The notes beneath the pieces are model-generated. The model made no database searches. It was given only the letters and a program-made list of their open reading frames with translations, and had not been told where the DNA came from. DNA of 64,000 bases from Mycolicibacter virginiensis (GTDB lineage Bacteria > Actinomycetota > Actinomycetes > Mycobacteriales > Mycobacteriaceae), in NCBI RefSeq assembly GCF_022374935.2, contig NZ_CP092430.2:3410001-3474000 (forward strand), given 5' to 3'. Below, one piece after another: positions 21,384 through 57,135 of this stretch. Position numbers and translations under genes: made by a program. Numbering within the stretch: the first letter of the stretch is position 1; each line of letters opens with the position of its first letter.

Positions 21384-24300
21384 TCAGGCGTTGAGCAGCG
21401 CGGCCAGGTCAGCCAGTTCGGGCAGCTCGTCGGCGATGACGGTGGTCCCGGAACGCACATAGTGGAAGGCGGCTCGTACCTGCGATGCCGGGCAGCCGGT
21501 CAACGCCGCCCAGGCAAGCCGGTAGACGCCGAGCTGGACAGCCGCGTGCCGGCGCGCGTCAGGCCCGTCGGGGGGCGTTCCGGTCTTCCAGTCCACCACG
21601 GTGACGCCGCCGTCGCGCTCGACGAACACCGCGTCGATCCGACCGCGCACCACTCGGCTGCCGATGACCATCTCGAACGGCACCTCGACGGCGGTGGGAG
21701 TACGGGCTGCCCAGGGCGATTCCAGGAACGCCGCCTGCAGACGGGCCAGCTCCTGCGCATCGGCGCGGGCGGTGTCGGCGTCGGCGGCGCCGGGTAGATC
21801 TTCAAGTTCGAAGAGCCGCTCGGCGCCATAGAGTCGCTGAACCCAATCGTGAAATGCGGTGCCCAACAACGCATGCGGGTCTGGTCGAGCCGGGAGCCGG
21901 CGACTTAGACGCTGCCCCGCGCCATCGGGGTCACGGCTCAACTCGACCAGACCGCTCACCGAGAGCTGGTTGGGCAGGGTGCGGGTCTGCTGGGTTGCGG
22001 CCGTGGCTCGCTCTGCCAGCAGGGCGTCCACGTCGGCGGCCCACCGGCTAGCCGAGGGCGTGTCGTCCTGGGGTTCGCCGGCCTGCAGTTTCGCGGCGAC
22101 CAGTGCCGCGCCGCGTTCGACATCACCGCGGCGGCCGTCCAGCGGGTCAGCGGGCCACACTCCTTCATTTGCGGTGTCGCACAACGGATTTTTCTCTCCG
22201 TCAGCCGGCGCCTGCGCCCAGTGCTCGACCGTCCCGCAGGGCGTCCCCTCATCGGCTGAGCTGTCGATCACCGCCTTGATCTCGGCGAGGAAATCCGACG
22301 GCCCGCGCGGCTTGGCCTCGCCCTGCCCCCAGTGGTGGCCAGAGATCAGCAGGGTGTCTTCGGCTCGGGTGACAGCGACGTAGAGCAGCCGCCGCTCTTC
22401 GTCGACGCGCCGCTGATCCAAGCGGCGCTGATGTTCGGAGATGGCGTCGGACAGCTGTTTTCGGTTGGTGACCGCGTCAGTGTCGAGCAGCGGGACGCCG
22501 TGATCGCCGGGTTCATGCGGCGGTCCCAGCTTCGCCTCTCCTCCGTCGAACCTCGCTGAACCGCCGGGTTCATGCGGCGGTCCCAGCTTCGCCTCTCCTC
22601 CGTCGAACCTCGCTGAACCGCCGGGTTCATGCGGCGGTCCCAGCTTCGCCTCTCCTCCGTCGAACCTCGCTGAACCGCCGGGTTCATGCCGCGGTCCCAG
22701 CTTCGCCTCTCCTCCGTCGAACCTCGCTGAACCGCCGGGCCCAAACGGCTGCGCCCGGTCGCCGCGCAGCAGCGGCGGCAGTTCGGATGCGTCGGAGAGC
22801 CAGCTGCGTCGCGACGCGGTCGACGGGAAAACCCGCGCCACCAGGTGCGGTATCGCGACCACCTGCCATTCCAGCCCCTTGGCGGCATGCACGGTGAGGA
22901 TCTGGACGCGGTCGGCAGCGACTGCTGGCGCTGCCGGCGCCAACCCGTTCTCCACCACGGCGGCGGCATCCAGGTAAGCCAGCAGACCCGGCAGCGCAGC
23001 CTGTGCCCCGGCACCCTCGGCGTAACCGGCCACCACATCGGCGAAGGCGTCGAGTTGTTCGGTACCCGCCGCACTTGCCGCCACCGGCTGCGCGGCGAGC
23101 ACCTCGCAGTCCAGGCCTAGCACCCGGCGTACCTCGGCCACCAAATCGGGCAGCGGATGCCACAGATGGCCGCGCAGCAACGTCAGTTCTTCGGCGAGAG
23201 CGACGATGCGCCGGTACCCGACGGCCGAATAGCGCTCTGCCGGACCAGGATCGGCCAACGCATCGGCCAGACATGCGGTCTCCGAATCGGGCCCGGCCGT
23301 GGCCGCGATCTCCGCGGCCGATACCGGCGCACCGGACTGCTCGGGCCGGGCCAGCTCGGCGGCGCGTCGCCACAGCGCGGCGAGATCGGCGGCGCCGAAC
23401 CGCCAGCGCGGCCCAGTCAGCACCCGCATCGCCGCCGCGCCGGCGGTCGGCTCCTGGATCAGCCGCAGCATCGCCACCAGGTCGGCCACCTCCGGCACAG
23501 ACAGCAGCCCGGCCAGCCCCACCACTTCCACCGGCACGCCGCGGGCGCGGATCGCCTCGGCCAGGGGCGCTGCGTCGGCGTTGCGCCGCACCAGCACGGC
23601 GGCGGTGGGCGGATCCACCCCGTCGGCGTCGGCCTGCCGGTAGCACCGCTGCAAGGCCTCGGCGACCCATTCGTCTTCGGTGACGACGTCGGGCAGCAGG
23701 GCGACCCGCACGTCGCCGGGGGGCGCGGCCGGGCGCGGCCGGAGCGATTGCACCGTCACGGAACGCCGGCGTGCCTCCGCGGAGATCTCGTTGGCCAGGT
23801 GCAGCACCTCTGGCGGGTTGCGCCAGCTGGTCCGCAGCTCCAGGGTGGGCGCCGGACTGCCGTCGGAGAGCGGGAAGTCGGTGGCGAATCGGGGCAAGTT
23901 GGTCGCCGAGGCACCGCGCCAGCCGTAGATCGACTGGATCGGGTCACCCACCGCGGTCAGCGCCAGGTCGTCGTCGACACCGCCGCCGAACAGCGACGAC
24001 AGGGCGATGCGCTGGGCGTGCCCGGTGTCTTGGTACTCGTCGAGCAGCACCACCCGGTAGGTTGCGCGCAACCGGGCGCCGACGGCCTCGTTGGATTCCG
24101 CCAGGCGCGCGGCAGTGGCCATCTGGGCGCCGAAATCCATTGCCCGTTCCGCCCGCATGCGCTGGTGCAGGGCCTCAATCAACGGCACCAGCTCGGCACG
24201 TTCGGTCTGAGTGTCGAGCATCTTGAGCAGCGACTGGTTGGGTTCGGCGCGCTGGCGCGGGCCCGGCGGCAGGGTGTGCACCAGCCGCTCCAGCTCCAGG

Positions 24301-24896
24301 TGCGTGTGGCGCAGTGCGTCGGTGTCCACCAGGTGTTCGGCGAGCTGGCCGGCCAGCCGCAACACCATCGCGGTGACCGCAGCGGGATCCCGGTCGGTGT
24401 CCAGCTCCCCGGGATAACCGCTGACCACGTCGAACGCCAGCTGCCACAGCCCGGTCTCGGTGAGCAGCCGGGTATCGGGCTCGATGCCGAGCAGCAGCCC
24501 GTGCTCGCGCAGCAGCGCGCCCGCGAAGGCGTGATAGGTGCTCACCACAGGTGTCGTGGCCGTGGCGCCGTCGATACCTTTCGCGCCGGATCTATCCGGT
24601 TCGGCCGCCATCAGTCCGGCGCCGGCCAACCGCGCCAACCGGGATCGAACCCGGCGCAGCAGTTGGCCGGCCGCCTTGCGGGTAAAGGTCAGGCCCAAGA
24701 CCTGGCCAGGGTCGGCGTAGCCGTTCGCAACCAGCCACACCACCCGGGCGGCCATCGTCTCGGTCTTACCGGCACCCGCACCGGCAATCACCACCAGCGG
24801 CCCCGGCGGGGCGGCGATGACCGCGGCCTGCTCCTCGGTGGGCTGGTGCAACCCAAGCGCGGCCGCCAGTTCGGCGGGGTCGTAGCGGCCGCTCAT
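21384..24896 (-). CDS. adnB: AdnB subunit of the AdnAB helicase-nuclease, with a repeat insertion
   Basis: 1170 residues: UvrD-type motor with Walker A 'AGAGAGKTETMAARV', 'LLDEYQDTGHAQR', 'GDPIQSIYGWRGA' and '[17 protein letters not shown]', then a RecB-type nuclease ('RGRIDAV' and 'VVDWKTGTPPDG'). AdnAB is the mycobacterial end-resecting motor for double-strand break repair. The ATG at 24896 overlaps the adnA stop (ATGA). Between 'LPPLLRGDRAQPFGP' and 'GDHGVPLLDTDAV', just before motif VI, lie four in-frame copies of a 19-residue repeat. Removing these 76 residues gives about 1,094, the usual AdnB size, so the repeat is an insertion in a surface loop. Confidence 0.95.
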   Translation of the reverse strand: MSGRYDPAELAAALGLHQPTEEQAAVIAAPPGPLVVIAGAGAGKTETMAARVVWLVANGYADPGQVLGLTFTRKAAGQLLRRVRSRLARLAGAGLMAAEPDRSGAKGIDGATATTPVVSTYHAFAGALLREHGLLLGIEPDTRLLTETGLWQLAFDVVSGYPGELDTDRDPAAVTAMVLRLAGQLAEHLVDTDALRHTHLELERLVHTLPPGPRQRAEPNQSLLKMLDTQTERAELVPLIEALHQRMRAERAMDFGAQMATAARLAESNEAVGARLRATYRVVLLDEYQDTGHAQRIALSSLFGGGVDDDLALTAVGDPIQSIYGWRGASATNLPRFATDFPLSDGSPAPTLELRTSWRNPPEVLHLANEISAEARRRSVTVQSLRPRPAAPPGDVRVALLPDVVTEDEWVAEALQRCYRQADADGVDPPTAAVLVRRNADAAPLAEAIRARGVPVEVVGLAGLLSVPEVADLVAMLRLIQEPTAGAAAMRVLTGPRWRFGAADLAALWRRAAELARPEQSGAPVSAAEIAATAGPDSETACLADALADPGPAERYSAVGYRRIVALAEELTLLRGHLWHPLPDLVAEVRRVLGLDCEVLAAQPVAASAAGTEQLDAFADVVAGYAEGAGAQAALPGLLAYLDAAAVVENGLAPAAPAVAADRVQILTVHAAKGLEWQVVAIPHLVARVFPSTASRRSWLSDASELPPLLRGDRAQPFGPGGSARFDGGEAKLGPRHEPGGSARFDGGEAKLGPPHEPGGSARFDGGEAKLGPPHEPGGSARFDGGEAKLGPPHEPGDHGVPLLDTDAVTNRKQLSDAISEHQRRLDQRRVDEERRLLYVAVTRAEDTLLISGHHWGQGEAKPRGPSDFLAEIKAVIDSSADEGTPCGTVEHWAQAPADGEKNPLCDTANEGVWPADPLDGRRGDVERGAALVAAKLQAGEPQDDTPSASRWAADVDALLAERATAATQQTRTLPNQLSVSGLVELSRDPDGAGQRLSRRLPARPDPHALLGTAFHDWVQRLYGAERLFELEDLPGAADADTARADAQELARLQAAFLESPWAARTPTAVEVPFEMVIGSRVVRGRIDAVFVERDGGVTVVDWKTGTPPDGPDARRHAAVQLGVYRLAWAALTGCPASQVRAAFHYVRSGTTVIADELPELADLAALLNA
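22511..22738. repeat. 57-bp tandem repeat x4 inside adnB
   Basis: Four contiguous 57-bp units (22511, 22568, 22625, 22682). The first three are identical as read and the fourth has one visible change (GCGGCGG to GCCGCGG). The unit starts GTTCATGCGGCGG and ends CTGAACCGCCGG. On the adnB strand it encodes G-G-S-A-R-F-D-G-G-E-A-K-L-G-P-P-H-E-P. The same unit, with about four changes, is in the SRAP gene (56802-56982), and part of it is at 63955-64000. Confidence 0.97.
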
Positions 24897-27800
24897 GCGC
24901 CGCACCCACCGTTGTGGGCCGGGCAGATCGGCCGGACCGGGCAGTGCCGGCACCCGTCGTTGACCCGGGCGGTGAACTGCGGGCCGGCGGTGGCCGCGGC
25001 TGCCTGCGCGATCCGCTCCCGCCATTGCCCGCCGGTGTCGGGCGTGAGTGGGTCTTGTTCGCGCTCGGTGGCGCCGACCGTTCCGGGTTTGGCGGGATAG
25101 ACCAGCCGGCCCCCGCCGGGCTGCTCCTCGGGCCCAATGAGCCCGGCTTCGACCGCCAGCTGGTAGACGGCCAACTGGGCGTGCTGTTGTGCGTCGTCCT
25201 TGCTCACCGGGGTCTTCGCGGTCTTGACGTCGACGACCACCAGCCGGCCGGCGGCGTCGCGTTCGACCCGGTCGATCCGGCCACGCAGCCGAACCCCGTC
25301 ATCACCGACGTCGATCACTCCGTCGAAGCCGACCTCGGTGCCGACTTCGGTGAGGTCGCCACGGGTTTGGGACCGCCATGCCAGAAATGTCTCGATGATG
25401 GCGCGATGCCGGTCGAGTTCGTTGGCCGAGTACCACTGCGCCGTGAACGGCAGCCGCTGCCATGCCCGGCTCAGCTCGGCCTGCAGTTCTTGCTGGCTGC
25501 CCGCCGATTCGGCGACCAGCGCGTGTATCACCGATCCGATCGTCGAGCGCAGGTCGCGACCGTCGGTTCCGCCGTGGCGTTCGGCCAGCCAGCGCAGCGG
25601 GCAGTCCAGCAGGCTCTGCAGCGCCGACGGCGACAGGGTGACCGGTCCGTCGCCGGGTTGGCGAAGTGGCTCCTCGCTGCTCAACGGCGCCGCGCCATGC
25701 CAGCTCTGCGGATCGGCACCGGGCACCCCGGCCCGGGCAAGTCGGGCCAATTGCGTTGCAGCGTCAGCGCGTTCGGAGTCGCTGACCTCGGTCTCCGGTG
25801 CACAGACCACGGCACGCAGTCGGCCCACCAGCCCGGCCGCCGACAGCACCGGCGGGGCCACGACCGGTGGCGCCGGTGCTGTTGCGGCATCACCGGTGGC
25901 GCAAGCCGCGAGTTCGGCGAAGAACTCCGACGGGAGTTGTTCCTCGGTGCCGCCGTCTCCGTCGCCGTCGACAGCGGTGATGACCAGCCGGCGCCGTGCC
26001 CGTCCCAGCGCCGCCACCAACAGCCGGCGCTCCTCGGCGAGCAGCGGGGCCCGAGCCGAGACCTCTTCCCCGAAGCCGTGCAGGGTGTCCAGGAGCCGCT
26101 GGGTTCCCAGCACGCCGCCGCGCGGAACAGTATTGGGCCACAGTCCTTCCTGGACTCCGGCGATGACCACCAGATCCCATTCGCGCCCGAGTGCGGCGTG
26201 CGCACTGAGCACACCGACCGCCTCCGTGCCCATTGCGGACTCGACGCGGGGTGCCGCCAGTTGCATGGCGGTGACGTATTCGACCAGCCCGTTCAGGGTG
26301 GCACCGGCGGTGCGCGCCGCGTACTGCTCAGCCAGGTCGAACAGTGCGGTCACCGCGTCCAGATCCCGACCGGCTTGAGCGCCTGCCGTACCGCCGCGCT
26401 CGGCAGCCGAGAGCCAGCGTTGTTGCAGCCCTGAGCGATTCCAAGCCTGCCACAGTGTGTGGTGCGGGTCGCGGCCGTCGGCGTGGCTGCGGGCCGCGGC
26501 CTGCAACACCCCGCGAACCCGGCGCAGCGCGCGGCCGTGCGCGGCCGGCAGCTCACCCGCCGCGCCGGTGAGCACAGCCGCGAGACGGTCTCCGGGCTCA
26601 TGCCGTTCATGCGGGGTTCCCGGACGGGCCGCGCCGCGGCGCAGGGTGCGTTGCAGTTGCCGCAGGGAGATCGGGTCCACGCGCCCGATCGGCCCACTGA
26701 GCAAGGCCAGCGCCCGAGTTCCGTCCACGACGTCAGCGGTGCACTCCAGCACCGTCAGCAAGGCGGCCACCGCGGGCTGTTCGGCCAGCAACCCACCACT
26801 GGCCGGCAACATGACCGGAATCCCGGCGGCAGCCAGGGTGCGGGGCAGCCGCGCGGCCGCCCGCGGCACCGACCGGACGATCACCGCCATCTGCGACCAC
26901 GGCACCCCATCGATCAGGTGGGCGCGCCGCAAGGTGTCGGCGATCAGGGCGGCCTCGGCGTGGCTGCTGGCCGCGGTGCGCACGCTCACCGCTCCGGCAT
27001 CGGGTCCGGTGCCCTCGATGCGACGCGTGGCGCTGGTCCCGGGCAGCCGCGCGGCGACGAAGCTGATTGCCTTGGCCACCGCCGGGGAGCAGCGGTGCGA
27101 CGTCGTCAGCGTCACCACGGGCACCGCGGCTCCGTCGGGTTGCGCGTCGTCGCCCAGCAGGACGGTGGGTTCGGCACCGCGGAAACCGAACACCGCCTGA
27201 TCGGGGTCGCCCGCGATCACCGTCCGGTGCACGCCGGCGGCAAGCACCCGCACCAACCGTGCCGCCTGCGGGTCGAGTTGCTGGGCGTCGTCGACCAGCA
27301 GTAGCCGGATCCGGCTACGTTCGTCGACGAGCAGATCCGGGTCGGTCGCGAAGGCCTCCAGCGCCGCCCCGACCAATTCCGCTGCGCCCAGCGCCGGCGT
27401 GGTCGCCTGGGGCGCCGCTGTACCGACCGCGGCGCGCAGCAGCATCACCTGTTCGTACTGCTGGGCGAACCGGCCCGCGGCCGTCCACTCCGGGCGGCGG
27501 CAGCGCTTGCCCAACCTGGTCAGCTCCGCCGGATCCACGCCCCGTTCGGCGCAGCGCGCCATCAAGTCCCGCAGTTCGGTGGCGAAGCCGTCGGTGGCCA
27601 GGGCCGCGTGCAGCGACGGCGGCCAGGCCCCGGCTCCGTCCCCGGCGAGCAGTTCCCGGATCACGCTGTCCTGTTCGGCGCCGGTGACCAGCCGTGGTGG
27701 GGTGGCCTCGGCCCGCCGGGCGGCGCGCTGCAGGACCGCGAAGGCATAGCCGTGCACCGTGCGCACCAGCGGTTCCCGGATCGCCTGGCCGCTGTCGGGC

Positions 27801-28042
27801 CCGCCGGCGGCCAGCAACGTCGCGGTCAGCGCTCCGCGGTCCGCCGCGGGAAGCCGGCCCGAGCCCGTGAGCAGCAGCACCGAATTCGCGTCCACGCCGG
27901 CGGCGACGTGGGCGTGGGCCACCTCCTCCAGCAGGCGGGTCTTGCCGGTGCCGGGTCCTCCGCGCACCTGCAAAACGCCACGCGCGCGCGGATCGAGTGC
28001 CGCGGCGGCCTGCGCGGCGGATGATCCCCAATCGTGTGGCAT
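24893..28042 (-). CDS. adnA: AdnA subunit of the AdnAB helicase-nuclease
   Basis: 1049 residues. A UvrD/PcrA-like motor with Walker A 'VRGGPGTGKTRLLEEV', 'LLVDDAQQLDPQAARLV' and 'GDPDQAVFGFRGAEP', then a RecB-like nuclease ('LRGRIDRVERD', 'VVDVKTAKTPVSKDDAQQH'). The C-terminal Cys cluster 'CRHCPVRPICPAHNGGC' fits the nuclease Fe-S cluster. It forms a heterodimer with AdnB, encoded immediately downstream with a 4-nt ATGA overlap. The ATG at 28042 ('MPHDWGSSAAQ') is preferred over one ten codons upstream. Divergent from lipV. Confidence 0.95.
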   Translation of the reverse strand: MPHDWGSSAAQAAAALDPRARGVLQVRGGPGTGKTRLLEEVAHAHVAAGVDANSVLLLTGSGRLPAADRGALTATLLAAGGPDSGQAIREPLVRTVHGYAFAVLQRAARRAEATPPRLVTGAEQDSVIRELLAGDGAGAWPPSLHAALATDGFATELRDLMARCAERGVDPAELTRLGKRCRRPEWTAAGRFAQQYEQVMLLRAAVGTAAPQATTPALGAAELVGAALEAFATDPDLLVDERSRIRLLLVDDAQQLDPQAARLVRVLAAGVHRTVIAGDPDQAVFGFRGAEPTVLLGDDAQPDGAAVPVVTLTTSHRCSPAVAKAISFVAARLPGTSATRRIEGTGPDAGAVSVRTAASSHAEAALIADTLRRAHLIDGVPWSQMAVIVRSVPRAAARLPRTLAAAGIPVMLPASGGLLAEQPAVAALLTVLECTADVVDGTRALALLSGPIGRVDPISLRQLQRTLRRGAARPGTPHERHEPGDRLAAVLTGAAGELPAAHGRALRRVRGVLQAAARSHADGRDPHHTLWQAWNRSGLQQRWLSAAERGGTAGAQAGRDLDAVTALFDLAEQYAARTAGATLNGLVEYVTAMQLAAPRVESAMGTEAVGVLSAHAALGREWDLVVIAGVQEGLWPNTVPRGGVLGTQRLLDTLHGFGEEVSARAPLLAEERRLLVAALGRARRRLVITAVDGDGDGGTEEQLPSEFFAELAACATGDAATAPAPPVVAPPVLSAAGLVGRLRAVVCAPETEVSDSERADAATQLARLARAGVPGADPQSWHGAAPLSSEEPLRQPGDGPVTLSPSALQSLLDCPLRWLAERHGGTDGRDLRSTIGSVIHALVAESAGSQQELQAELSRAWQRLPFTAQWYSANELDRHRAIIETFLAWRSQTRGDLTEVGTEVGFDGVIDVGDDGVRLRGRIDRVERDAAGRLVVVDVKTAKTPVSKDDAQQHAQLAVYQLAVEAGLIGPEEQPGGGRLVYPAKPGTVGATEREQDPLTPDTGGQWRERIAQAAAATAGPQFTARVNDGCRHCPVRPICPAHNGGCGA

Positions 28043-28100
28043 GCCGCCTATGAGAGCACTGCCCTCCGACAAGTCTGGGCGCGGCTGGCACCATCGACGG

Positions 28101-28889: not shown

Positions 28890-28900
28890 GAGCGCGGTCC

Positions 28901-29197: not shown

Positions 29198-29207
29198 CGG
29201 CGGCACA

Positions 29208-34653: not shown

Positions 34654-34753
34654 GCGACGACCCGCTTCGCCCGGCTCCGCCGCGCTCGCGATCGCCGCTA
34701 TCCCATGGCGACGACCCGCTTCGCCCGGCTCCGCCGCGCTCGCGATCGCCGCT
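34654..34753 (+). repeat. 46-bp GC-rich dispersed repeat, two copies
   Basis: Two identical 46-bp units at 34654-34699 and 34708-34753 (54-bp period). They start GCGACGACCCGCTTCGCCCG, run through GCTCCGCCGCGCTCGCGA and end TCGCCGCT. They lie between the AraC start and the stop of the ferritin-like gene. Same family as the copies at 38471-38597 and 30167-30212. Confidence 0.93.
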
Positions 34754-34760
34754 AACCCAC

Positions 34761-37237: not shown

Positions 37238-38473
37238 ATGGTGCGACCCGAGCGCCGCACCTCCGGTGATCTGGTCGCGGCGGCCCTGATCGCGGTCGTG
37301 ATCGTCGTCGTCGGAGTGGTCATCTGGTGGACCAGCGATGCCCGCGCCACGATCAGCCGGCCGGCATCGGACTCGGCGACCAATCCCCCATCGGCGGCGA
37401 TGGTGCCCGCGGCGCTGTCGCAGCTGTGGACAGCGGCCAGCCCGGCAACCTGGGCCCCGGTGTTGGTCTCCGGCACGGTGATCACCGGTGACGGTCCGCG
37501 GATGAGCGGACGTGACCCGGCCACCGGGGAGGAGCGCTGGAGCTACTCCCGCGACGTCGACCTGTGCGCGGTGTCCTGGATCTACCGTTACGCCGTCGCT
37601 GTCTATCCCGACTCCCGCGGGTGCGGCCAGGTCAGCGCGGTTGTCGCCGCCGACGGCCTACGCGGCCCGGCCCGCACCAGCTACGCCGACCGGGCCGTGC
37701 GGGTCTCCTCCGAGGGCAGCGCGGTGCTCTCTGCCGGCTCCACCCGCTTGGAACTGTGGCGTTCGGACCTGGTTCGAGTGATGTCTTACGGGGAGATCGA
37801 CGCTCGGGTGAAACCCTCGGCGCGCGGCCGCGGACAGGGCTGCACCCTGATCTCGGCGGCGGCGGCCTCCTCGGCGGTCTCGGTACTGGAGTCCTGCGCG
37901 GGCCAGTCCGATCTGCAACTGACCCTGCTGCGCGCGGGCAAGGAGGAAGACGAGCCGGAGACCCAGCACATCGCCGAACGCGGCGTGACCGCGGACTCCG
38001 GCGCGCGGGTGCTTGCGGTGACCGACTCCGACGCCGGCGCCAACACCGCGGTCTATCTGCCCACCCCGCAGCCCCGGATCGAGGTCGTCGACCAGACCGG
38101 CACCACGATCGCCAAGACCATGCTGCCGGCCAAACCCACCGCCGCCAGCGCCACATTGCCGGTCTCGCGGCCCACCGGGTTGATCTGCTGGTGGACCGGC
38201 GACGCCGTGATGGTGTTCGACTCCGGAACGCTGACCTACCGCTACACCGTTCCGGCATCCGGCGCCGCGGTTCCGTTGGGGCCGGCGGTACGAATGGCCG
38301 ACCGCCTACTGATCCCGGTGACCGACGGGGTCGGCGTCTTCGACCAGGACACCGGCGCGCCTGAACGCATCATCCCGGTCAGCCGCCCGCCCGGGGTGTC
38401 GACGGTGTTTCCGGCGGTGTCGGGTCCGACGGTGTTGGAGCAGCGCGGCGACACCGTCGTCGCGCTGGGTTGA
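37238..38473 (+). CDS. Membrane-anchored PQQ-like beta-propeller protein (Rv3212 type)
   Basis: 411 residues. One N-terminal transmembrane helix (about 12-30, 'VAAALIAVVIVVVGVVIWW'), then a predicted extracytoplasmic domain with PQQ-like repeats ('GRDPATGEERWSYSRDVDLC', 'LLIPVTDGVGVFDQDTGAPER'). Cys pairs ('DLCAVSW', 'SRGCGQ') may form disulfides. Function unknown. It is 14 bp after rhlE and probably co-transcribed. The TGA stop lies inside the first unit of the 3' repeat. Confidence 0.8.
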   Translation: MVRPERRTSGDLVAAALIAVVIVVVGVVIWWTSDARATISRPASDSATNPPSAAMVPAALSQLWTAASPATWAPVLVSGTVITGDGPRMSGRDPATGEERWSYSRDVDLCAVSWIYRYAVAVYPDSRGCGQVSAVVAADGLRGPARTSYADRAVRVSSEGSAVLSAGSTRLELWRSDLVRVMSYGEIDARVKPSARGRGQGCTLISAAAASSAVSVLESCAGQSDLQLTLLRAGKEEDEPETQHIAERGVTADSGARVLAVTDSDAGANTAVYLPTPQPRIEVVDQTGTTIAKTMLPAKPTAASATLPVSRPTGLICWWTGDAVMVFDSGTLTYRYTVPASGAAVPLGPAVRMADRLLIPVTDGVGVFDQDTGAPERIIPVSRPPGVSTVFPAVSGPTVLEQRGDTVVALG

Positions 38474-38597
38474 TGGCGTGCGACCCGCTTCGCCCGGCTC
38501 CGCCGCGCTCGCGATCACCGCTGGGCTGATGGCGGCGACCCGCTTCGCCCGGCTCCGCCGCGCTCGCGATCACCGCTGGGCTGATGGCGGCGACCCG
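38471..38597 (+). repeat. GC-rich dispersed repeat, two full copies and one partial
   Basis: Units start at 38471, 38527 and 38582 (period 55-56). Each has TGATGGCG, then GCGACCCGCTTCGCCCGGCT continuing to GCGATCACCGCTGGG; the third stops after GCGACCCGCTA. The array fills the whole gap between the convergent beta-propeller and ParA genes and supplies the stop codon of the former. Confidence 0.93.
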
Positions 38598-39398
38598 CTA
38601 GATCTCTGGGGTGAAGGTGGGCAGCGTCTTGCCGTTCTTCCAGTACTTGAGCAACGCCTCGGCCAGCTGCCGATAGGCCTGCGCGCCCTTGTTCTTGCGT
38701 CCGGCGATCACTGAGGCGCCCGATGCGCTGGCCTCGGCGAAACGCACCGTCCGCGGGATCGGCGGAGCCAGTACCGGCAGCTCGTAGCGGTCGGCGATGT
38801 CGAGCAACACGTCGCGACTATGGGTGGTGCGCGAGTCGTAGAGCGTCGGCAGGGCCCCCAACAGGTGCAGCTTGGGGTTGGTGATCTGCTGGACGTCCGA
38901 CACGGTGCGCAAGAACTGGCCGACGCCTCGATGCGCCAGGGTCTCGCATTGCAGGGGCACGATCACCTCGCCGGCCGCGGTGAGACCGTTGAGGGTCAGC
39001 ACGCCCAACGACGGCGGACAGTCAATGACCGCCACATCGAACTCGTCTTCCAGCTTGGCCAGCGCCCGCGCCAGGACATACTCGCGGCCGGCGCGCATCA
39101 GCAGCATCGCCTCGGCGCCGGCCAGGTCGATGTTGGCCGGCAGCAGGGTCATCCCCTCGTCGGTCGGTACCAACGCCGTGTTGGGCTCCACCTCGCCCAG
39201 CAGCACCTCGTGCACCGACACCGGCAGCTTGTCGGGGTCGTGGCCCAGGGAGAAGGTCAGGCAGCCCTGCGGGTCGAGGTCGACCAGCAACACCCGCCGA
39301 CCCAGCTCGGCCATCGCCGCACCCAGCGAAGCCACCGTCGTGGTCTTGGCCACGCCGCCTTTCTGGTTGGCAACCGCCAAGATCCGCATCCCCGTCAC
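38598..39398 (-). CDS. ParA/Soj-family ATPase (Rv3213c type)
   Basis: 266 residues. Deviant Walker A 'ANQKGGVAKTTTVASLG', Walker A' 'LLVDLDPQGCLTF' and 'VIDCPPSLGVLTLNGL' are canonical for ParA/MinD ATPases. No ParB or parS is near, so this is a secondary ParA-like protein rather than the oriC-linked segregation gene. The GTG at 39398 matches the M. tuberculosis N terminus; an ATG at 39389 is three codons in. Divergent from the histidine phosphatase gene. Confidence 0.88.
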   Translation of the reverse strand: MTGMRILAVANQKGGVAKTTTVASLGAAMAELGRRVLLVDLDPQGCLTFSLGHDPDKLPVSVHEVLLGEVEPNTALVPTDEGMTLLPANIDLAGAEAMLLMRAGREYVLARALAKLEDEFDVAVIDCPPSLGVLTLNGLTAAGEVIVPLQCETLAHRGVGQFLRTVSDVQQITNPKLHLLGALPTLYDSRTTHSRDVLLDIADRYELPVLAPPIPRTVRFAEASASGASVIAGRKNKGAQAYRQLAEALLKYWKNGKTLPTFTPEI

Positions 39399-39476
39399 AC
39401 CGACATACTGGCACGGCTTGGCTCCACGGAGCACCAAACGCCGCTCGGTGTCCGCCGTCGGGCAGAATCGACGGGC

Positions 39477-40082
39477 GTGGGGATCGAGGAGCACCGACTT
39501 CTGCTGCTGCGCCACGGGGAAACCGAGTGGTCCCAAAGCGGTCGGCACACCGGGCGCACCGATCTGGAGTTGACCGAGGTGGGCCGGCGCCAAGCCCTCG
39601 CCGCCCGCGCAACGCTGACAAAGCTTGCGTTGGACAACCCGCTGGTGATCTGCAGCCCGCGCCGCCGCGCCCAGGTGACCGCCGAGCTGGCCGGACTGCA
39701 CGTCGACGAGATCTCCGACGACCTCGCCGAGTGGGACTACGGCCGCTACGAAGGGCTGACCACCGCGCAGATCCGCGAATCCGAACCCGACTGGCTGATC
39801 TGGACACTCGGCAGTGCTGGCGGTGAGACGGTGGCGCAGGTCAGCGACCGCGCCGACCGGATGGTTGCGTCGGCGCTGCGGCAACTCCCCTCACGTGATG
39901 TGGTGTTCGTCGGACACGGCCACTTCTCCCGGGCGGTGATCACGCGGTGGCTGGAGCTGCCGTTGGCCGCCGGAGCGCGTTTCGCGATGGCCGCGGCCTC
40001 AATGGCCGTGTGCGGCTTCGAGCACGGGGTGCGCCAGCTCATCGCGCTCGGTCTGACCGGACCTCAGGCCGCAGGGCTGTGA
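39477..40082 (+). CDS. gpm2: Histidine phosphatase-superfamily enzyme (Rv3214 type)
   Basis: 201 residues. Catalytic 'LLLLRHGETEWSQSGRHTGRTDLELTEVG' (RHGE), second Arg in 'VICSPRRRAQVT', Glu in 'AEWDYGRYEGL' and second His in 'VVFVGHGHFSRA'. Although historically named gpm2/entD, the family member is an acid phosphatase rather than a glycolytic mutase. GTG start; the stop overlaps the entC start (GTGA), so the two are coupled and a role linked to isochorismate products is possible. Confidence 0.88.
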   Translation: MGIEEHRLLLLRHGETEWSQSGRHTGRTDLELTEVGRRQALAARATLTKLALDNPLVICSPRRRAQVTAELAGLHVDEISDDLAEWDYGRYEGLTTAQIRESEPDWLIWTLGSAGGETVAQVSDRADRMVASALRQLPSRDVVFVGHGHFSRAVITRWLELPLAAGARFAMAAASMAVCGFEHGVRQLIALGLTGPQAAGL

Positions 40083-49249: not shown

Positions 49250-49287
49250 CAGACCACCTCTTCATCTCCGTGGCGTTTGGTGGCTCA

Positions 49288-49302: not shown

Positions 49303-49384
49303 CGGTTGCCAGGTAGGAATGCGCCGGGTCGACGCGATCGGGCCCGCGTTGATCGCCGGTCCGGCGCGTGGGGCCGCCGCGGCA

Positions 49385-49390
49385 TAGGCT
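49385..49390 (+). promoter_or_regulatory. -10 box (TAGGCT) for the SDR gene, leaderless
   Basis: TAGGCT, then seven bases, then the ATG at 49398. Same hexamer and spacing as the P450 gene promoter. Confidence 0.52.
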
Positions 49391-49397
49391 GACAGCC

Positions 49398-50258: not shown

Positions 50259-50278
50259 CGCCGCGCGGCGAGACGACT

Positions 50279-51247
50279 GTGACCGACATCTTCGTCGAAA
50301 GCGAGTTCGCGCCGCTGCGCACCGTGGTGCTCGCCCAGTCTGAACTGGCGCTGCCCGACGACATCCCGGATTCCGACCTGGATTTCCTTTCCTCCGGCTC
50401 AGCCGAAACCGTTGTCGCTGGAGAAGATTTCGGTATCGCGTGCCCGCAGCGGGCGCACCTGTGGCTGCAGGAACGGCGCAACCTCGCCGCGGTGTTGCAC
50501 CGGCACGGTGTCGAGGTGCTGCGGCCGCGGATGTTGACCGCGGCCGAGAAGGCCGCAGCAGGCTCCGACGGATACGCCAATTTCTTTGTCCGCGACCCGT
50601 TCTTCACTATCGGAGACGTCGTGATCGAGGGCTCCCTTCGGTTTCGGCATCGCCGTCGCGAGGTGTTGCCGGTCCGCGACATCCTGCTCGAGCGGGTGTA
50701 TCCCGCCCTCTGCGACTATGTCGCCGTCCCGGCTCCCGAGATCGCCGCCGCCGACGACACGACGCTGGGGCCCGGTCCGTTCTTAGAGGGCGGCGATGTC
50801 CTGGTCCTCGGCCGGCAGGTTTTCGTGGGGACATCAGGCCTAGCATCGAATGCACTCGGCGCGCGCTGGCTGGCCAAGCTGCTCGCTACGCGGGGCTACA
50901 CCGTTGAGGTGGTCCGGTTGGTCCCCGACATCCTGCACCTGGACTGTGCGCTCGGTTTGATCCGCGACGGCCTGCTGGTGGTGTGCGAAGACGCACTGCT
51001 CGACGGGGTTCCCGCCGCGCTCAAGTCCTGGGACCGGATACCGGTTTCGCTGGCGCAGGCCAAGGAACTGGCCACCAACGGGTTGCCGATCTCCCCCGAC
51101 GTCTACGTCACCGATCCCGTTTTCGGTTGGGTCGGTGAGCAATTGGAACGCCGTGGCGTCACGGTCGAGTACGTCGAGTTCGGAATCAGCCGGTCACTGG
51201 GCGGCGCGTTCCGGTGCAGCACCCAACCCCTGCTGCGCCGCAGCTAG
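50279..51247 (+). CDS. Guanidino-group-modifying enzyme (amidinotransferase/arginine deiminase-like)
   Basis: 322 residues of the pentein superfamily. Substrate-carboxylate Arg/Asp in 'NFFVRDPFFTIGD', catalytic 'GPFLEGGDVLVLG', His in 'DILHLDCALGLI' and the nucleophile Cys in 'SLGGAFRCSTQPLLR'. It could be a dimethylarginine hydrolase, arginine deiminase-like or amidinotransferase-like enzyme; the exact reaction cannot be assigned. GTG start 20 bp after the SDR gene. The stop overlaps the convergent kinase gene by 4 bp. Confidence 0.82.
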   Translation: MTDIFVESEFAPLRTVVLAQSELALPDDIPDSDLDFLSSGSAETVVAGEDFGIACPQRAHLWLQERRNLAAVLHRHGVEVLRPRMLTAAEKAAAGSDGYANFFVRDPFFTIGDVVIEGSLRFRHRRREVLPVRDILLERVYPALCDYVAVPAPEIAAADDTTLGPGPFLEGGDVLVLGRQVFVGTSGLASNALGARWLAKLLATRGYTVEVVRLVPDILHLDCALGLIRDGLLVVCEDALLDGVPAALKSWDRIPVSLAQAKELATNGLPISPDVYVTDPVFGWVGEQLERRGVTVEYVEFGISRSLGGAFRCSTQPLLRRS

Positions 51248-52662
51248 CCGACGGGGCGCGACTCGGCCCTCGGGATGACCAGCCGGAAGCGGGCGCCTCC
51301 CTGGTGGGAAACACACGTCAGCGTCCCGCCGTGCGCGACGGCCAGCGCCCGGGCGATCGGCAGTCCCAGTCCCGCACCGCCGTGGTCGCGGCCGCGGGCG
51401 CTGTCCAGGCGCACCAGCCGATCGAAGATCCGCTCGGCATCCTCGGCGCGCACCCCGACACCGGTGTCGGTGACGACCACCGCGATACCACCGCTGTCTT
51501 CACCGACCTCGACGGTGATCTGCCCACCGGGCGGAGTGTATCGGCGCGCGTTGTCGAGCAGGTTGGACAGAATCTGCGCGACTCGCGTGGGATCGACCCA
51601 GGCGGTCACCGAGTCGAGGCCGGTACGCTCGACTCGCAGTTGCGGGGCAAGCAGCGCCGCCCGATCCAGTTGAGTGTCGACGATCCCGACCAGGTCGATC
51701 TCTTTGAGTTCCAACGGCAGTCCGGCATCGATATAGCTCAGGTCCAGCATGTCGGTGACCAATCGGGTGGCCCGCCGGGCTTCGGTCAGCAGCAGGCTGG
51801 CGCGACGATGCTGACGAAGAACCTCGGGCTCGATAGCGTCCTCATTGGCGGATTGGCCGACATGCACGCTGACATTTCCGGCGATCTGCTCCGCGGCGGC
51901 CTGCATTCCCGCTATCGGTGTGCGCAGCTCGTGGGCAGCGTCGGCGAGAAAGCGCCGTACCGCCGCCTCCGCTCGCCGCGCCCCCTGCGCGGCGCGCTGC
52001 GCCCGCTTCTCAGAGTCCTCCAACTCGTCGAGCATGTCGTCGAAAGCTTCTGCTGCCCTGCCTAGTTCGGTCTTGGGGCGGTCTGGTCTCAGTCGCCGGC
52101 CCCGGTCCCCGGTGGTGATGTCGCGGGCGAGGTCGGTGAGCCGGTCCAGCGGCGCGAGCAGCGCACGGCTTGCCCCGGCCAGCAGGGTCGATGCCAGCAG
52201 CAGGGTCCCCAGACCGGCCTCGATCATCAAGCGCCGCAATCTGCGCAGCGTCTCGTCGGATTCCGTGGTGTCGGCGACCAGGATCACCCGGTCGCCGTTG
52301 GCCAAGGGATGCACCAAGACTGTTGCGGTGTCGTCGGGTTCCAGCGGCGGGGCCGGAATCTTCGATCCGGTGGTCGCGTCGGGCTCGATCGCGGGGTCGC
52401 CGTAGCTGGTGCCGTCGGCGGTGACCACCAGTGCGGCGATGATGCCGCCGTTGAGTTGTTCCGACATCTGTTCAGCCGAGATACCCAGTGCTACCAAGGA
52501 ATCCGCGCGCGTGGTTGCCGCTGCCAGTCGTTCGTGCACGCTGCGCGTTGCCAGCGCGGTCAGGGTGGCATTGATCACCAGCCCCATCGCCAGCATCAGC
52601 ATGACCAGCAACGCCAGCACCATCACCGTCAGCCGGCGGCGCAGCGAGGGGGTGGCGGTCAT
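51244..52662 (-). CDS. Membrane sensor histidine kinase
   Basis: 472 residues: two transmembrane helices (about 10-33 and 145-165) around an extracytoplasmic sensor, a HAMP domain, and the HisKA box with phospho-His in 'FLADAAHELRTPIAG'. HATPase motifs are 'ILSNLLDNARRYTPPGG', 'DTGVGVRAEDAERIFDRL' and 'GGAGLGLPIA'. The start overlaps the response-regulator stop (ATGA), giving a standard two-component operon. The signal is unknown. Confidence 0.92.
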   Translation of the reverse strand: MTATPSLRRRLTVMVLALLVMLMLAMGLVINATLTALATRSVHERLAAATTRADSLVALGISAEQMSEQLNGGIIAALVVTADGTSYGDPAIEPDATTGSKIPAPPLEPDDTATVLVHPLANGDRVILVADTTESDETLRRLRRLMIEAGLGTLLLASTLLAGASRALLAPLDRLTDLARDITTGDRGRRLRPDRPKTELGRAAEAFDDMLDELEDSEKRAQRAAQGARRAEAAVRRFLADAAHELRTPIAGMQAAAEQIAGNVSVHVGQSANEDAIEPEVLRQHRRASLLLTEARRATRLVTDMLDLSYIDAGLPLELKEIDLVGIVDTQLDRAALLAPQLRVERTGLDSVTAWVDPTRVAQILSNLLDNARRYTPPGGQITVEVGEDSGGIAVVVTDTGVGVRAEDAERIFDRLVRLDSARGRDHGGAGLGLPIARALAVAHGGTLTCVSHQGGARFRLVIPRAESRPVG

Positions 52663-53381
52663 GAACCCGCAAGTTCCAGCCGGTAACCGATCCCGCGCAC
52701 CGTATGCAGGATTCGTGGTCCGTGTGCCTCGAGCTTCTGCCTCAACCCGCTGATGTGGACCTGCACCAGGTTAGGGTCGTAGGCCTCATAGCCCCACACC
52801 GCGTTGAGGATCTGCGCGCTGCTGACGATGCGGCCGCGTTGTTCGACGAGGTAGACCAACACGCGCAGCTCGGTGGCGGTCAAACCCAGCGGGGTGCCCG
52901 AGCGGGAGGCCACTCCGGCGTCGACATCGACCATCAGATCGCCGAACTGCACGGCAGCCGGTAACCGGCCGCGTCGGCGGAGCACCGCACCGACCCGCGA
53001 CACCAGTTCGGCCAGCTCGAACGGCTTGACCACGTAGTCGTCGGCGCCGCCGTCCAGACCGCGCAGCCGGTCGGGTAAGCCGTCACGCGCGGTGAGCAGC
53101 ACCACCCCCACCTCGCCCCAGCGCAGGATCACGTCCATCAGCGCAAAGCCGTCACGTCCCGGCAGCATGACGTCGAGGACCACCAGATCCGGCCGGAATC
53201 CGTCCAGTACCTCCTCCAGGCCGTGACCGTCCGGCTGGGTGTCGGTGAGGTAACCGGCATCGGCCAGCGCCTCGCTGACCATCTCGCGGATGGTCTCGGA
53301 GTCCTCGACAACCAGAACCCGCGGCGTTCCCACACTGAAGGGAGTACCGCCGCGACGGTCGGCGGACCGGGAATCGGCCAT
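52659..53381 (-). CDS. OmpR-family response regulator
   Basis: 240 residues. Receiver domain with phospho-Asp in 'PDLVVLDVMLPGRDG' and Lys in 'DDYVVKPFELAEL', then a winged-helix DNA-binding domain ('LTATELRVLVYLVEQRGRIVSS', 'VQVHISGLRQKLEAHGPRILHTVRGIGYRL'). It precedes its kinase by a 4-nt overlap. It is divergent from the PPE-SHOCT operon over 170-200 bp, which makes those genes candidate targets. Confidence 0.93.
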   Translation of the reverse strand: MADSRSADRRGGTPFSVGTPRVLVVEDSETIREMVSEALADAGYLTDTQPDGHGLEEVLDGFRPDLVVLDVMLPGRDGFALMDVILRWGEVGVVLLTARDGLPDRLRGLDGGADDYVVKPFELAELVSRVGAVLRRRGRLPAAVQFGDLMVDVDAGVASRSGTPLGLTATELRVLVYLVEQRGRIVSSAQILNAVWGYEAYDPNLVQVHISGLRQKLEAHGPRILHTVRGIGYRLELAGS

Positions 53382-53550
53382 GGTCCATTGATAACACCGT
53401 CACGCCACGATGGGGAGAACCGACCGGCGCGGCTTACGCCCGCCGCCGCGTTCTTCAGGTTCACTTCAAGTTGACTGTCTACGGTCACGGGGTCCGAGTG
53501 CGCCCGGCTACCCCTCGCAGCGGCGCGAACCGGGAAATTCAGGAGGCACC

Positions 53551-53580
53551 ATGACGCCTACTACCAACAGGATTGTCTGA
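53551..53580 (+). CDS. Nine-codon leader ORF before the PPE-SHOCT operon
   Basis: ATG at 53551 follows AGGAGG by four bases, the best Shine-Dalgarno in the region, and encodes M-T-P-T-T-N-R-I-V then TGA. The stop ends two bases before the PPE ATG at 53583. The PPE start has no comparable site of its own, so terminating ribosomes probably reinitiate on PPE. The peptide may have no role beyond coupling. Confidence 0.5.
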
Positions 53581-53582
53581 CA

Positions 53583-54926
53583 ATGGATTTCGCGATGCTG
53601 CCGCCAGAGGTCAACTCGAGCCGGATGTATTCGGGGGCAGGCGCACAGCCCTTGCTGGCTGCTGCTGCTGCCTGGAGCGCTCTGGCCGCCGAACTGAACA
53701 GCGCGGGTGTGGCCTACGACTCGGTGATCGACGAGCTGTCCGCCGGCTGGGCCGGGCCCAGCGCCGCAGCGATGGCCGCCGCCGCGGCACCGTACGCCCA
53801 GTGGATGCACGCCACCGCCGCCCAGGCCGAACACACCGCAACGTCGACCCGGACTGCCGCCGCCGCTTATGACGCGGCGTTCGCCATGACGGTGCCTCCC
53901 CCGGCGGTCACCGCCAACCGCACTCAGATGATGTCGCTGCTTGCCACCAACTATCTGGGTCAGAACACCGCCGCCATCGCGGCCACCGACGCCCAGTACT
54001 ACGAAATGTGGGCCCAGGACGCCGCCGCCATGTACGGCTACGCCACCAGCTCCGCCGCTGCCACCAGGCTGGTCCCGTTCACCGAGCCCCCGCGCACCAC
54101 CAATCCCACTGGGACCGCGAATCAGGCCGGTGCGGTCGGCCAGGCCACCGCCACCGCGGCGGGCAGCCACGCCGACACCGCGGTTTCCGCGATCACCCAG
54201 GCCCTGCAGGGTCTCAGCGCGCCGGGATCGGCGGCAGCGGGATCGAATGCGGCACTGACCGGTTCGATCGGGTCGGCGGCGGCAATGGAGCCTGGGCTGG
54301 CGGCCTCCTACTTGGCGTTGGCCTCCAGCCTGTTCGGCACCTTCGTCATCGACTCGGCCGGTACCTTCGGCGTGGACGCGGCCGGCACCTTCGGAATCGA
54401 CCTGATCGGCGTCGGCGAGATCGAGAGCGAACTGCTGCCGGAGATGGCTTTGGCCAGCGCGATCACCCCGGTGAGCGCCGAACTGGGTGAAGCGGCCACG
54501 CTCAGCGGGCTGTCGGTGCCACAGGCCTGGGCCACCGCGGCGCCGACGACCACCGTGATCCAGCAGGTCGGCGGCGCCTTGCCGACTGCCGCGCAAGCTG
54601 CCCTCCCCGCGGCCTCGGCGGGCGCCTCGGCATTGCCGCTGGCCGCCATCGGCGCAGCCGGGCTGGCCGGTCGGGCCACCGCGGGCCTAGGGCGGGGCCG
54701 CGCGACGGCCACCGCGAACCCGAAAACCACCCCCAAACGGGCGCCGCGCGCCCTGATCAAACAGCGCGACCAGGCCGAGAAGCCGGAGCAGCCGCCGGTA
54801 CGGCCGTTGCACGGGCCGATCACGCGGATCTCCGGTGAGCTGCGGGAACTGGCCGATCTGCGCGATGCCGGGATCCTCACCGAAGAAGAGTTCACCCAGG
54901 AAAAGCAGCGCCTCCTCGGCCGGTAG
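53583..54926 (+). CDS. PPE-family protein with C-terminal SHOCT domain, copy 1
   Basis: 447 residues. PPE domain (1-180) with '[16 protein letters not shown]', the WxG turn '[13 protein letters not shown]' and '[15 protein letters not shown]'. An Ala/Gly-rich middle and a PPE-SVP-like '[10 protein letters not shown]' follow. The end is unusual: a basic linker, then '[30 protein letters not shown]', a SHOCT module. PPE proteins are normally secreted by ESX systems. Start coupled to the upstream mini-ORF; the paralogue follows after 5 bp. Confidence 0.92.
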
Positions 54927-54931
54927 CACCC

Positions 54932-56206
54932 ATGGATTTCGCACTGTTGCCACCGGAGGTGAACTCCGGCCGGATGTATTCCGGCGCGGGCGCCGGTCCC
55001 TTGCTGGCCGCGGCGTCGTCCTGGGATGCGCTGGGCGCCGAGCTACACAGCGCGGGCCTCGCCTACACCTCGGTGCTCACCGAACTGGGTTCCGGCTGGG
55101 CAGGCCCCAGTGCGCGGGCCATGGCCGCCGCCGCAGCGCCGTACGCCCAATGGCTGCAGACCGCCGCGATCCAGGCCGAGGAGACCGCCATCGCGGCCCG
55201 CGCCGCCACCGCCGCCTACGAGTCAGCTTTCGCCATGACCGTGCCCCCACCGGTGATCGCCGCCAACCGCAGCCTGCTGATGACCCTGGTCGCGACTAAT
55301 TTCCTGGGCCAGAACACGCCCGCGATCGCCGCCGCCGAGGCCCACTACTACGAGATGTGGGCCCAGGACGCCACCGCCATGTACGGCTATGCCGCCGGTG
55401 CCGCCACCGCCGGCAGGCTCAGCCCGTTCCAGCAGCCACCGCGCACCACCAACTCCGCCGCTACGTCGGCGCAGTCAGCGGCCGTCATGCATGCGGCCGC
55501 CACCACCTCCGAGGGTCACGGGGAGAGTGCTATCACCACCCTCACCCATGCGCTGGAGTCCTCGTCGGCCGTGGCCGAGGCCATCGGCGCCGACGCGCTC
55601 TTGATCAGCGAACCCGCGATGGAGGTCGGCATCGCCGGTGTCGAGCTGGTTGTCGACTCGATGGGCACGTTCGGCGTCGACGCGCTCGGCACGTTCCTGT
55701 TCGACGCGATGGGCGCCGCCGAGGTGGGCCAGGAATTGCTGCGCGCCGCCATGGCGGGTGCGCTGCCGGTCTCGGCGAACTTCGCCTCGGCGACCTCGAT
55801 CAGCGGGCTGTCGGTGCCACTGGCCTGGGCCTCTGCCACGCCGGCGGCGGTGGCGCCGCAGATCGGCATGTCGCTGGTGTCCGTCGGTACCGCCGCCGCC
55901 ACCTCGGCTGTTCCGGCCGTGGCCGCCGGTGAGACGGTGATCCCCGCGGCAGGGATGGCCGCAGCCGGGGTGGCCGGACGGGCCGGGGCCGGCGCCACCC
56001 GGGGGGCCCGCATCCCGACTGCCGGTACCGTCACCCCGCCGCCGGTACCACGGCCCGGCGAGCTGCCGGAGGTGCCCGCGTCCTCGGCGTTCGGCCTGCT
56101 GATGGGCGCCGACATTGAGCTGCGTGAGCTGGCCGAACTGCGCAACGCCGGGATTCTCACCGACGAGGAGTACGCGCTGGAGAAGCGCAGCCTGGTCGGA
56201 CGTTAG
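54932..56206 (+). CDS. PPE-family protein with C-terminal SHOCT domain, copy 2
   Basis: 424 residues, tandem paralogue of copy 1: '[16 protein letters not shown]', '[13 protein letters not shown]' (WxG), '[16 protein letters not shown]', '[10 protein letters not shown]', a Pro-rich linker and the SHOCT-like end '[29 protein letters not shown]'. It begins five bases after copy 1 without a Shine-Dalgarno, so it is translationally coupled. The 3' end overlaps the convergent SRAP gene by 4 bp. Confidence 0.92.
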
Positions 56207-57135
56207 AACAGATGGGCCTGTTCGGGTTGCGGCTCGGCCGGTGCGATCAGCTCGGGTGAGTTGTTTCGCACGCTGTTGACCAGCGTCGAGACCTCACGCA
56301 CCGCGATCCCGGTCACGTCCGGCGGCTGGGAAAGCAGCGTGGTGTCGACGCCAGCATCCGGGTCCAGCCAAGTGTCCCAACGGTCTTCGGGCAACAGCAA
56401 CGGCATCCAATCATGAATGCCGGCAAGTTCCCCGACGGCCGCGGTGGTGATGATCGCGAAGCTCAGCACCGCGTCGGACACCCGGTTGGGGCGCCAGACC
56501 GACCACAGCCCGGCCGCATACAGCAACGCGCCGTCACCGTGGATGTAGAACGGTGTCTTGTGGGCCCCTCCTCCGGTTCGAGGCCCTTCAGCGCGCCATT
56601 CGTAGTAGCCGTCCATCGGCACCAGGCAGCGGCGCCGCTCGACGGACGCCGAGAACGCCGGTGAGGTGGTGACCTTGTCGGCACGGGCGTTGATCAGCAA
56701 CGGACCGCCGGACGCCGGTGCCCCGCCGGGACCGGCTTTAGCCCACGACGGCACCAGCCCCCAGCGCATCAGCCGCAGCCGCCGAGTCGGTACATCGCCG
56801 GGTTGATGCGGCGGTTCCAGCTTCGCCTCTCCTCCGTCGAGCCTCGCTGAACCGCCGGGTTGATGCGGCGGTTCCAGCTTCGCCTCTCCTCCGTCGAGCC
56901 TCGCTGAACCGCCGGGTTGATGCGGCGGTTCCAGCTTCGCCTCTCCTCCGTCGAGCCTCGCTGAACCGCCGGGTTGATGCGGCCCAGCGCGCCGGCTGAC
57001 CAGGGTCGCGACGCCGTCGGTGGGTGCCACGTTGTAGTTCGGGCCGGCGTCTGCGTCGGCCGGTATCTCGTTGATCGCATCGATACGCGTGGCCAGCAAC
57101 GCCGGATCGGTGGTTACCGCGAAACGCCCGCACAT
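56203..57135 (-). CDS. SRAP (HMCES/YedK) abasic-site protein with a repeat insertion
   Basis: 310 residues starting 'MCGRF', so Cys2 becomes the N-terminal nucleophile that crosslinks abasic sites in single-stranded DNA. Also seen: '[15 protein letters not shown]', '[12 protein letters not shown]', 'INARADKV', '[13 protein letters not shown]' with the active Glu, and 'IHDWMPLLL' (His; usually HDRMP). The upstream open frame is excluded because Cys must be residue 2. After '[10 protein letters not shown]' come three in-frame 19-residue repeats. Without these 57 residues the protein has the usual length of about 253. Rv3226c type. Confidence 0.93.
56802..56982. repeat. 57-bp tandem repeat x3 plus 10 bp inside the SRAP gene
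   Basis: Units at 56802, 56859 and 56916, identical as read, plus a 10-bp start of a fourth (56973). Unit GTTGATGCGGCGGTTCCAGC continues to CTGAACCGCCGG. On the gene strand it encodes [19 protein letters not shown]. It differs from the adnB unit at about three to four bases. Confidence 0.97.

Follow-up and report, generated by a model that had tools for sequence, protein, structure and literature searches.

A 57-bp repeat stands in tandem and in frame within two DNA-repair genes of Mycolicibacter virginiensis, adnB and a gene of the SRAP (HMCES/YedK-like) type, which both lie in a 64,000-nt stretch of contig NZ_CP092430.2 (positions 3,410,001 to 3,474,000; hereafter the window, in which coordinates are counted from the first base). 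This 57-bp unit is part of a dispersed palindromic repeat family. The best explanation, to which a probability of roughly 0.78 is assigned, is a mobile repeat of the Mycolicibacter group resembling the mycobacterial interspersed repetitive units (MIRUs), which would insert at NCGG sites, take up residence in coding sequences in frame and then expand and contract there as a variable-number tandem repeat (VNTR). Genomes and individual loci are designated by G and L numbers, respectively, where they have to be told apart.

The repeat arrays in adnB and in the SRAP gene

The open reading frame (ORF) at 21384-25025 on the minus strand (1213 aa) has a UvrD helicase and a PD-(D/E)XK nuclease domain according to Pfam, by which its predicted product is AdnB; solved AdnB chains are homologous to it from residue 45 onward. 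Tandem Repeats Finder reported an array at 22505-22739 on the minus strand (4.1 copies, 99% matches), and the in-frame ORF confirmed the four units that a reading of the sequence without database searches (hereafter the sequence-only reading) had placed at 22511-22738. In register these are 22511-22567, 22568-22624, 22625-22681 and 22682-22738, each encoding 19 residues of the PGGSARFDGGEAKLGPPHE type. The ORF at 56203-57255 (minus strand, 350 aa, MCGRF start at residue 41) has the Pfam domain SRAP and contains an array at 56796-56983 on the same strand (3.3 copies, 100% matches), with full units of 19 residues each at 56802-56858, 56859-56915 and 56916-56972. The three units of the sequence-only reading are thus present at 56802-56972, and its array end of 56982 includes part of a fourth. 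One reading phase is shared by both arrays, as had been proposed and as the translations show, with the peptides GGSARFDGGEAKLGPPHEP and a matching 19-residue unit.

The position of the arrays within the proteins was taken from sequence alignment to solved chains, and for SRAP solely from the point at which the HMCES match restarts. Among solved AdnB chains the best match, 6ppu_B with its kin (from M. smegmatis), covers query residues 45-759 and 841-1212, with two residues at the position of the array. The HMCES match to the SRAP protein restarts at query residue 153, directly past the array. Counted from the likely start near residue 44 and without the array, AdnB has about 1094 residues compared with 1095 in the solved chain; counted from residue 41, SRAP without its array has about 253 compared with roughly 250 in many homologues. 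These alignments and lengths agree with the expectation that each array fills a loop and that its subtraction restores a normal length. A structure prediction for SRAP from a 40-sequence alignment gave a mean predicted local distance difference test score of 33 and was not used. The SRAP protein is 99% identical to its M. heraklionensis homologue, and Mycolicibacter accounts for most of its nearest named homologues.

A dispersed repeat family in the M. virginiensis genome

A search with a 26-bp core of the unit (at most 3 mismatches) gave 121 matches on both strands of the 4.98-Mb genome and none with the reversed control, so that the sharing of the repeat by adnB and SRAP is not due to chance; a BLAST search agreed with these matches. 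In a profile search of 62 loci, at least 143 copies in at least 67 arrays were found, the number of arrays being a lower bound since the 62 loci came from 100 of the 121 core matches. Of 39 multi-copy arrays, 38 have a period of 55-58 bp and one has a period of 78 bp, and in most arrays the copies are nearly identical to one another. The family thereby falls into the size class of the MIRUs, tandem units of 46-101 bp dispersed in a mycobacterial chromosome.

Among 248 genomes of the genus, 20 had a core match with at most 2 mismatches: 12 of them, including that of M. virginiensis, had at least six and eight had one each. When 15 genomes were searched with AdnB, the best-scoring segments were 77-96% identical in the 11 repeat-rich relatives and 72-76% in three single-copy genomes; by this higher identity the repeat-rich genomes are the closer relatives within this set. 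Separately, a lone unit at positions 2973-3025 of locus L055 ends just ahead of an AAAGGA stretch and an ATG and may have a role as 5′ leader.

Unit structure and target sites

The 57-bp unit consists of a hairpin core of about 53 bp and a 4-bp flank, usually NCGG at the left. Hairpin z-scores were between -2.5 and -3.5, and 46-50 of 50 distinct units retain the stem pairs, which also show a few paired changes; the unit is a palindromic stem-loop, as are the Rickettsia palindromic elements (RPEs). To the left of the core, CGG was found in 53 of 62 arrays. The 4-mers flanking the arrays are identical in 20 of 62, compared with 11.9 in shuffled flanks (0 of 5000 shuffles as high). Empty target sites were read by eye at 11 sites in one relative each, and nine of them have NCGG (P 4e-11, or 8e-6 when four registers are allowed; CGG occurs at 4.5% of positions); the two without are the IrtA-like gene in G129 and the multicopper oxidase in G173. 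We infer from these sites that insertion is mostly at NCGG.

Empty sites and copy-number change in relatives

Besides adnB and SRAP, 14 in-gene hosts were located in relatives; a search of seven genomes gave no orthologue of L054. In 11 of the 14 genes the alignment to at least one relative has a gap that is an exact multiple of 19 residues, among others AraC and the dehydrogenase compared with G129, the FAD oxidoreductase ThiO compared with G022, and the nucleoside hydrolase compared with G180 (76 residues, or 4 x 19). The relative has an empty site in ten of these genes, and in the eleventh (L058) three units are found versus one. L060 was not counted, as the gap of 57 residues compared with G022 occurs although only two units were recognised there. 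The insertions in the multicopper oxidase, the siderophore transporter and the dehydrogenase were found only in the M. virginiensis genome among three or four relatives each. In-frame insertions in unrelated conserved genes that are absent from the orthologues are a further feature shared with RPEs.

Copy number also changes at fixed sites. In adnB, for which 13 loops were parsed from 14 loci, there are four units in M. virginiensis, one in G129, a truncated one in G022 and two each in G100 and G149; the eight others lack the unit. For SRAP (12 loops parsed from 15 genomes) there are three units in M. virginiensis, two in G129, one in G173 and none in nine others. ThiO has one unit in M. virginiensis and five in G077, and a CHAD protein of G100 has six in frame. 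Among named SRAP loci, copies were found in 3 of 80 (two, one and one units), namely in two M. heraklionensis records and in Mycobacterium sp. UM_WGJ; the loop was parsed in 71 of these 80 loci and in 10 of 120 database proteins. Three other long SRAP loops (L233, L238 and L240) have unrelated inserts at a different place.

These comparisons bear on several statements of the sequence-only reading. A change of copy number was expected to keep the frame, and exact differences of 19n residues were indeed found in many unrelated genes; the proposal of a mobile or expanding VNTR in coding loops agrees with the empty sites in relatives and the copy-number change at a fixed site. Variable linkers in an end-resection motor and an abasic-site sensor were found at the sequence level, with 0-4 units in adnB and 0-3 in SRAP. 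Two ways in which that reading might have failed can be set aside: the inserts are not ancestral, repeat copies being limited to 3 of the 80 named SRAP loci and 5 of the 13 parsed adnB loops, and the arrays are not assembly artefacts, because other assemblies have arrays at both sites with differing copy numbers.

At the fadD insertion (L009/L134), the 200-bp flank is 100% identical in G022 and 93% identical in G129, and 12 other matched flanks of G022 are 82-98% identical. The flank identity with G022 suggests recombination between lineages.

Residence in genes and use of reading frames

Among the loci read, 21 arrays are located in long ORFs with at least a marginal coding score on both sides; the majority of arrays are not spanned by a coding frame. 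After exclusions, 17 clear in-frame in-gene arrays remained, and 16 of the 17 hosts had Pfam hits: an AMP-binding protein, an M13 peptidase, ThiO, a patatin, a GT87 mannosyltransferase, a multicopper oxidase, a nitrilase-type hydrolase, a siderophore ABC transporter, a polyketide synthase, an AraC regulator, AdnB, SRAP, a carbamoyltransferase, a nucleoside hydrolase, a short-chain dehydrogenase and a LytR-CpsA-Psr protein. By coordinates, four of these 16 hosts (L023, L030, L033 and L060) have the array outside the Pfam domain, and the other 12 have it inside. At L058 neither Pfam nor NCBIfam gave a hit for the host, but it has coding score and one relative holds a single unit there. Two arrays, L036 and L038, were excluded as probably non-coding, their frames having a low coding score and no match in Pfam. 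The frame count of 17 also leaves out L025, where an epimerase holds a partial copy, and L011, whose 78-bp duplication is diverged. L011 was counted among the six in-gene arrays of the period test described below; here, positions 3029-3137 (frame 1752-3812, minus strand) hold a perfect in-frame 78-bp duplication derived from a diverged unit, in a protein of the MmpA family (NCBIfam).

The main 19-residue frame is used in 12 of the 17 cases, the frame giving PVVQRGSTQESRSWDRRM in two, an antisense 19-residue frame in two and an antisense 17-residue frame in one. Four of the six frames of the consensus unit are open, and these are the four used; the other two contain a stop. If CCGG sites were taken in proportion to codon phase, 33% of cases would be expected in the main frame (P 0.002), an excess that, on small numbers, may point to selection for a peptide that the host tolerates.

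In relatives, 21 further loci were read (L072 and L279-L298), 11 of them with Pfam hits. They are uninformative on frame use because they were chosen by a search with the frame-A peptide. Eight (L279, L281, L284, L286, L289, L290, L297 and L298) were not counted, having no spanning frame, a low coding score or an N-terminal extension only; in the hisA-like L289 the array lies solely in such an extension. The ORF is open at L280 and L287, without a Pfam hit. At L283 in G100 (888-3683, minus strand), one of the 11 loci with a Pfam hit, seven units within the open frame precede a Ser/Thr protein kinase domain and may form an N-terminal extension.

A homologous family that is nearly absent from genes

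A second repeat family, F2 (about 55 bp, periods of 52-56 bp), serves as an internal control. Its alignment to the 57-bp unit scored 39.5, compared with 17.9 ± 3.8 in shuffles (0 of 500 as high), and by this similarity the two families are homologous. F2 was found in 25 of 60 genomes of the genus and comprises 66 copies in 35 arrays in the M. virginiensis genome, where 32 loci were read. Two of its arrays lie in the window. The one at 34654-34759 (54 bp, 2 copies) has no spanning frame with coding score, and the one at 38463-38599 (55 bp, 2.5 copies) lies between the 3′ ends of the ORFs at 37238-38473 (plus strand) and 38598-39884 (minus strand), starting at the 3′ end of the former.

By one coding criterion, 1 of 35 F2 arrays is located in a gene compared with 18 of 67 arrays of the 57-bp family (P 0.003); other coding thresholds gave 0 versus 16 and 1 versus 21 in-gene arrays. 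Random positions near these loci fell into genes in 593 of 940 cases, so that the 57-bp family is itself depleted in genes. The mean numbers of open frames per first copy in the two families are 4.6 and 3.7 of six. Periods divisible by three were found in 2 of 17 F2 arrays versus 26 of 39 arrays of the 57-bp family and, within the latter, in 6 of 6 in-gene arrays versus 20 of 33 others (P 0.08). The 57-bp family is thus depleted yet tolerated in genes, F2 is nearly absent from them, and length is the simplest difference between the two.

The sole Rfam match in the window at the gathering threshold is a tRNA gene at 4663-4736 on the minus strand.

Proposed mechanism and alternative explanations

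Taken together, the repeat would be a mobile element of the Mycolicibacter group, small and non-autonomous, and akin to a more widespread mycobacterial interspersed repeat that is MIRU-like by description. It would insert across the chromosome at sites that are usually NCGG, as the empty sites of relatives indicate, probably through transposition in trans, possibly duplicating 4 bp. A length divisible by three, together with four open frames of six, would allow an insertion to lengthen a protein by exactly 19 residues without destroying the gene. Copies in tolerant places would persist, most often in frame for the main 19-residue linker, and a resident unit would then grow or shrink as an ordinary VNTR in steps of 19 residues, presumably by slippage or unequal recombination. 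AdnB and SRAP would be two among many such hosts, whose proteins are predicted from the DNA to carry extra, variable 19-residue linkers.

Several observations weigh against this explanation. The ends are unequal, with NCGG to the right of the last core in only 19 of 62 arrays, and identical flanking 4-mers are missing in 42 of 62; because of these unequal flanks the left CGG may partly belong to the element, and a 4-bp target duplication is possible and weakly supported. The P values for NCGG are optimistic, as one relative was used per site and others differ (SRAP of G180 has CTGG). PF01797 (RAYT/IS200 domain) had no match in the M. virginiensis genome (G000), no other enzyme having been searched for; among the genomes tested, two of 12 repeat-rich ones and three of 12 others have it. 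Mobilisation of the 57-bp repeat by a RAYT is accordingly unsupported in the M. virginiensis genome. A clean 19n gap is missing in three of the 14 genes (L010, L023 and L060), further small gaps lie near the array in L030 and L033, and the frame preference comes from 17 cases. The empty target at L057, finally, already resembles a unit junction (AACCCGGTGGT, in G180), which fits recombination as well. Together with the missing PF01797 enzyme, the unequal flanks and the near identity of copies within most arrays, this site speaks for a spread by ectopic recombination or microhomology-templated repair between copies and CCGG-containing sites, with no transposase involved. Exact one-unit (57-bp) differences at many unrelated sites on both strands and the excess of identical flanking 4-mers over shuffled flanks argue for a defined mobile unit instead, and spread by recombination is considered rather unlikely. 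Nothing beyond the tandem organisation favours independent local duplications or assembly artefacts unrelated to each other, an explanation whose probability is negligible given one consensus at 67 arrays and the agreement of other assemblies.

The two other alternatives concern the hosts and the F2 family. The element could be retained since variable 19-residue linkers are useful, for instance in tuning AdnB and SRAP by copy number, with repair genes as preferred hosts. Copy number does vary at fixed sites, a host frame of one relative has RNase_T and GIY-YIG domains (with a coding score of only 0.01 at the array), and Di Nocera's survey lists many repetitive extragenic palindromes (REPs) that lie within repair genes and holds that this is no accident (PMC3733652). 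The hosts found here are functionally scattered, however, empty alleles are common and the arrays are depleted in genes (18 of 67 versus 593 of 940). Two repair genes among about 19 hosts give P 0.055 against an assumed repair-gene fraction of 2%, in a window that was chosen for those two; by this weak test, targeting of repair genes is unsupported, adnB and SRAP look like ordinary targets of the 57-bp repeat, and retention for useful linkers is improbable. For F2, exclusion from genes could follow from targeting of start/stop codon overlaps, as is said of MIRUs, and not from length. The F2 consensus has CTGATGG, and according to a review MIRU insertion takes place at start codons, with a coupling of -4 nt (PMC12548453). 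Against this stands the divisibility by three of the in-gene 57-bp arrays (6 of 6 versus 20 of 33), at only P 0.08; targeting of this kind appears doubtful on the whole. A fuller scenario is possible and is put forward tentatively: a MIRU-like ancestor of about 55 bp would have given rise to a hairpin of 57 bp, a multiple of three read most commonly as a soluble linker, which would thereby have gained the access to coding DNA that is denied to F2, copy-number change then providing standing adjustable linkers, including those in an end-resection motor and an abasic-site sensor.

With two homologous families in one genome, of which the one whose period is usually divisible by three lives in genes and the other hardly does, a control is built in, and the colonisation of coding sequence by selfish DNA becomes a testable question. 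The arrays further offer a natural allelic series of one protein with 0, 1, 2, 3, 4 or more identical linkers as well as strain-typing markers within repair genes.

Comparison with known systems

The likenesses drawn here are by description. With MIRUs, which are tandem repeats of 46-101 bp (PMC3914561), the 57-bp family shares the size class, the tandem and interspersed organisation, the strain-variable copy number and an ATGA within the unit. Published descriptions place MIRUs between genes, at start codons or in 5′ untranslated regions (5′ UTRs), and in M. bovis 17 of 24 typing loci overlap a 5′ UTR (PMC4128351), whereas the 57-bp family is also located within coding domains; its 17 in-gene cases depart from the intergenic start-codon location. 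In-frame tandem change inside genes is known from the VNTRs of M. tuberculosis in ppe10, ppe24 and ppe34, where 17 of 25 intragenic pe/ppe variants are in frame (PMC12817950). The same paper describes a repeat, also of 57 bp, in the annotated dop gene, which its authors take as a promoter. Those VNTRs are mainly found in pe/ppe genes, and the accessible text describes no dispersed element entering unrelated conserved genes. A dispersed repeat family in frame in unrelated conserved mycobacterial genes was not found in the literature searched, whose coverage leaves out most subscription journals and which is no proof of absence.

The GTAG/CGTC REPs (PMC3733652) are likewise short stem-loops that occur within genes, including those of the UvrD/RecBCD type and other repair genes; the 57-bp family differs from them by the NCGG left flank, the head-to-tail tandem arrays and the lack of a PF01797 enzyme in the genome. 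Rickettsia offers the best-known example of a short palindromic repeat that enters genes in frame. RPEs and miniature inverted-repeat transposable elements fused in frame to genes have been described (PMC10969869, PMC2229807), and the same fusion in other prokaryotes has been called conceivable (PMC10969869). The 57-bp family resembles the RPEs as a dispersed palindrome that is both intergenic and intragenic and stands in frame in many unrelated conserved genes. Compared with the RPEs, it is shorter (57 bp versus about 105-150 bp), occurs in GC-rich actinobacterial hosts, the mycobacteria, is used in several reading frames and expands to tandem arrays, with four units in adnB and six in the CHAD protein of a relative.

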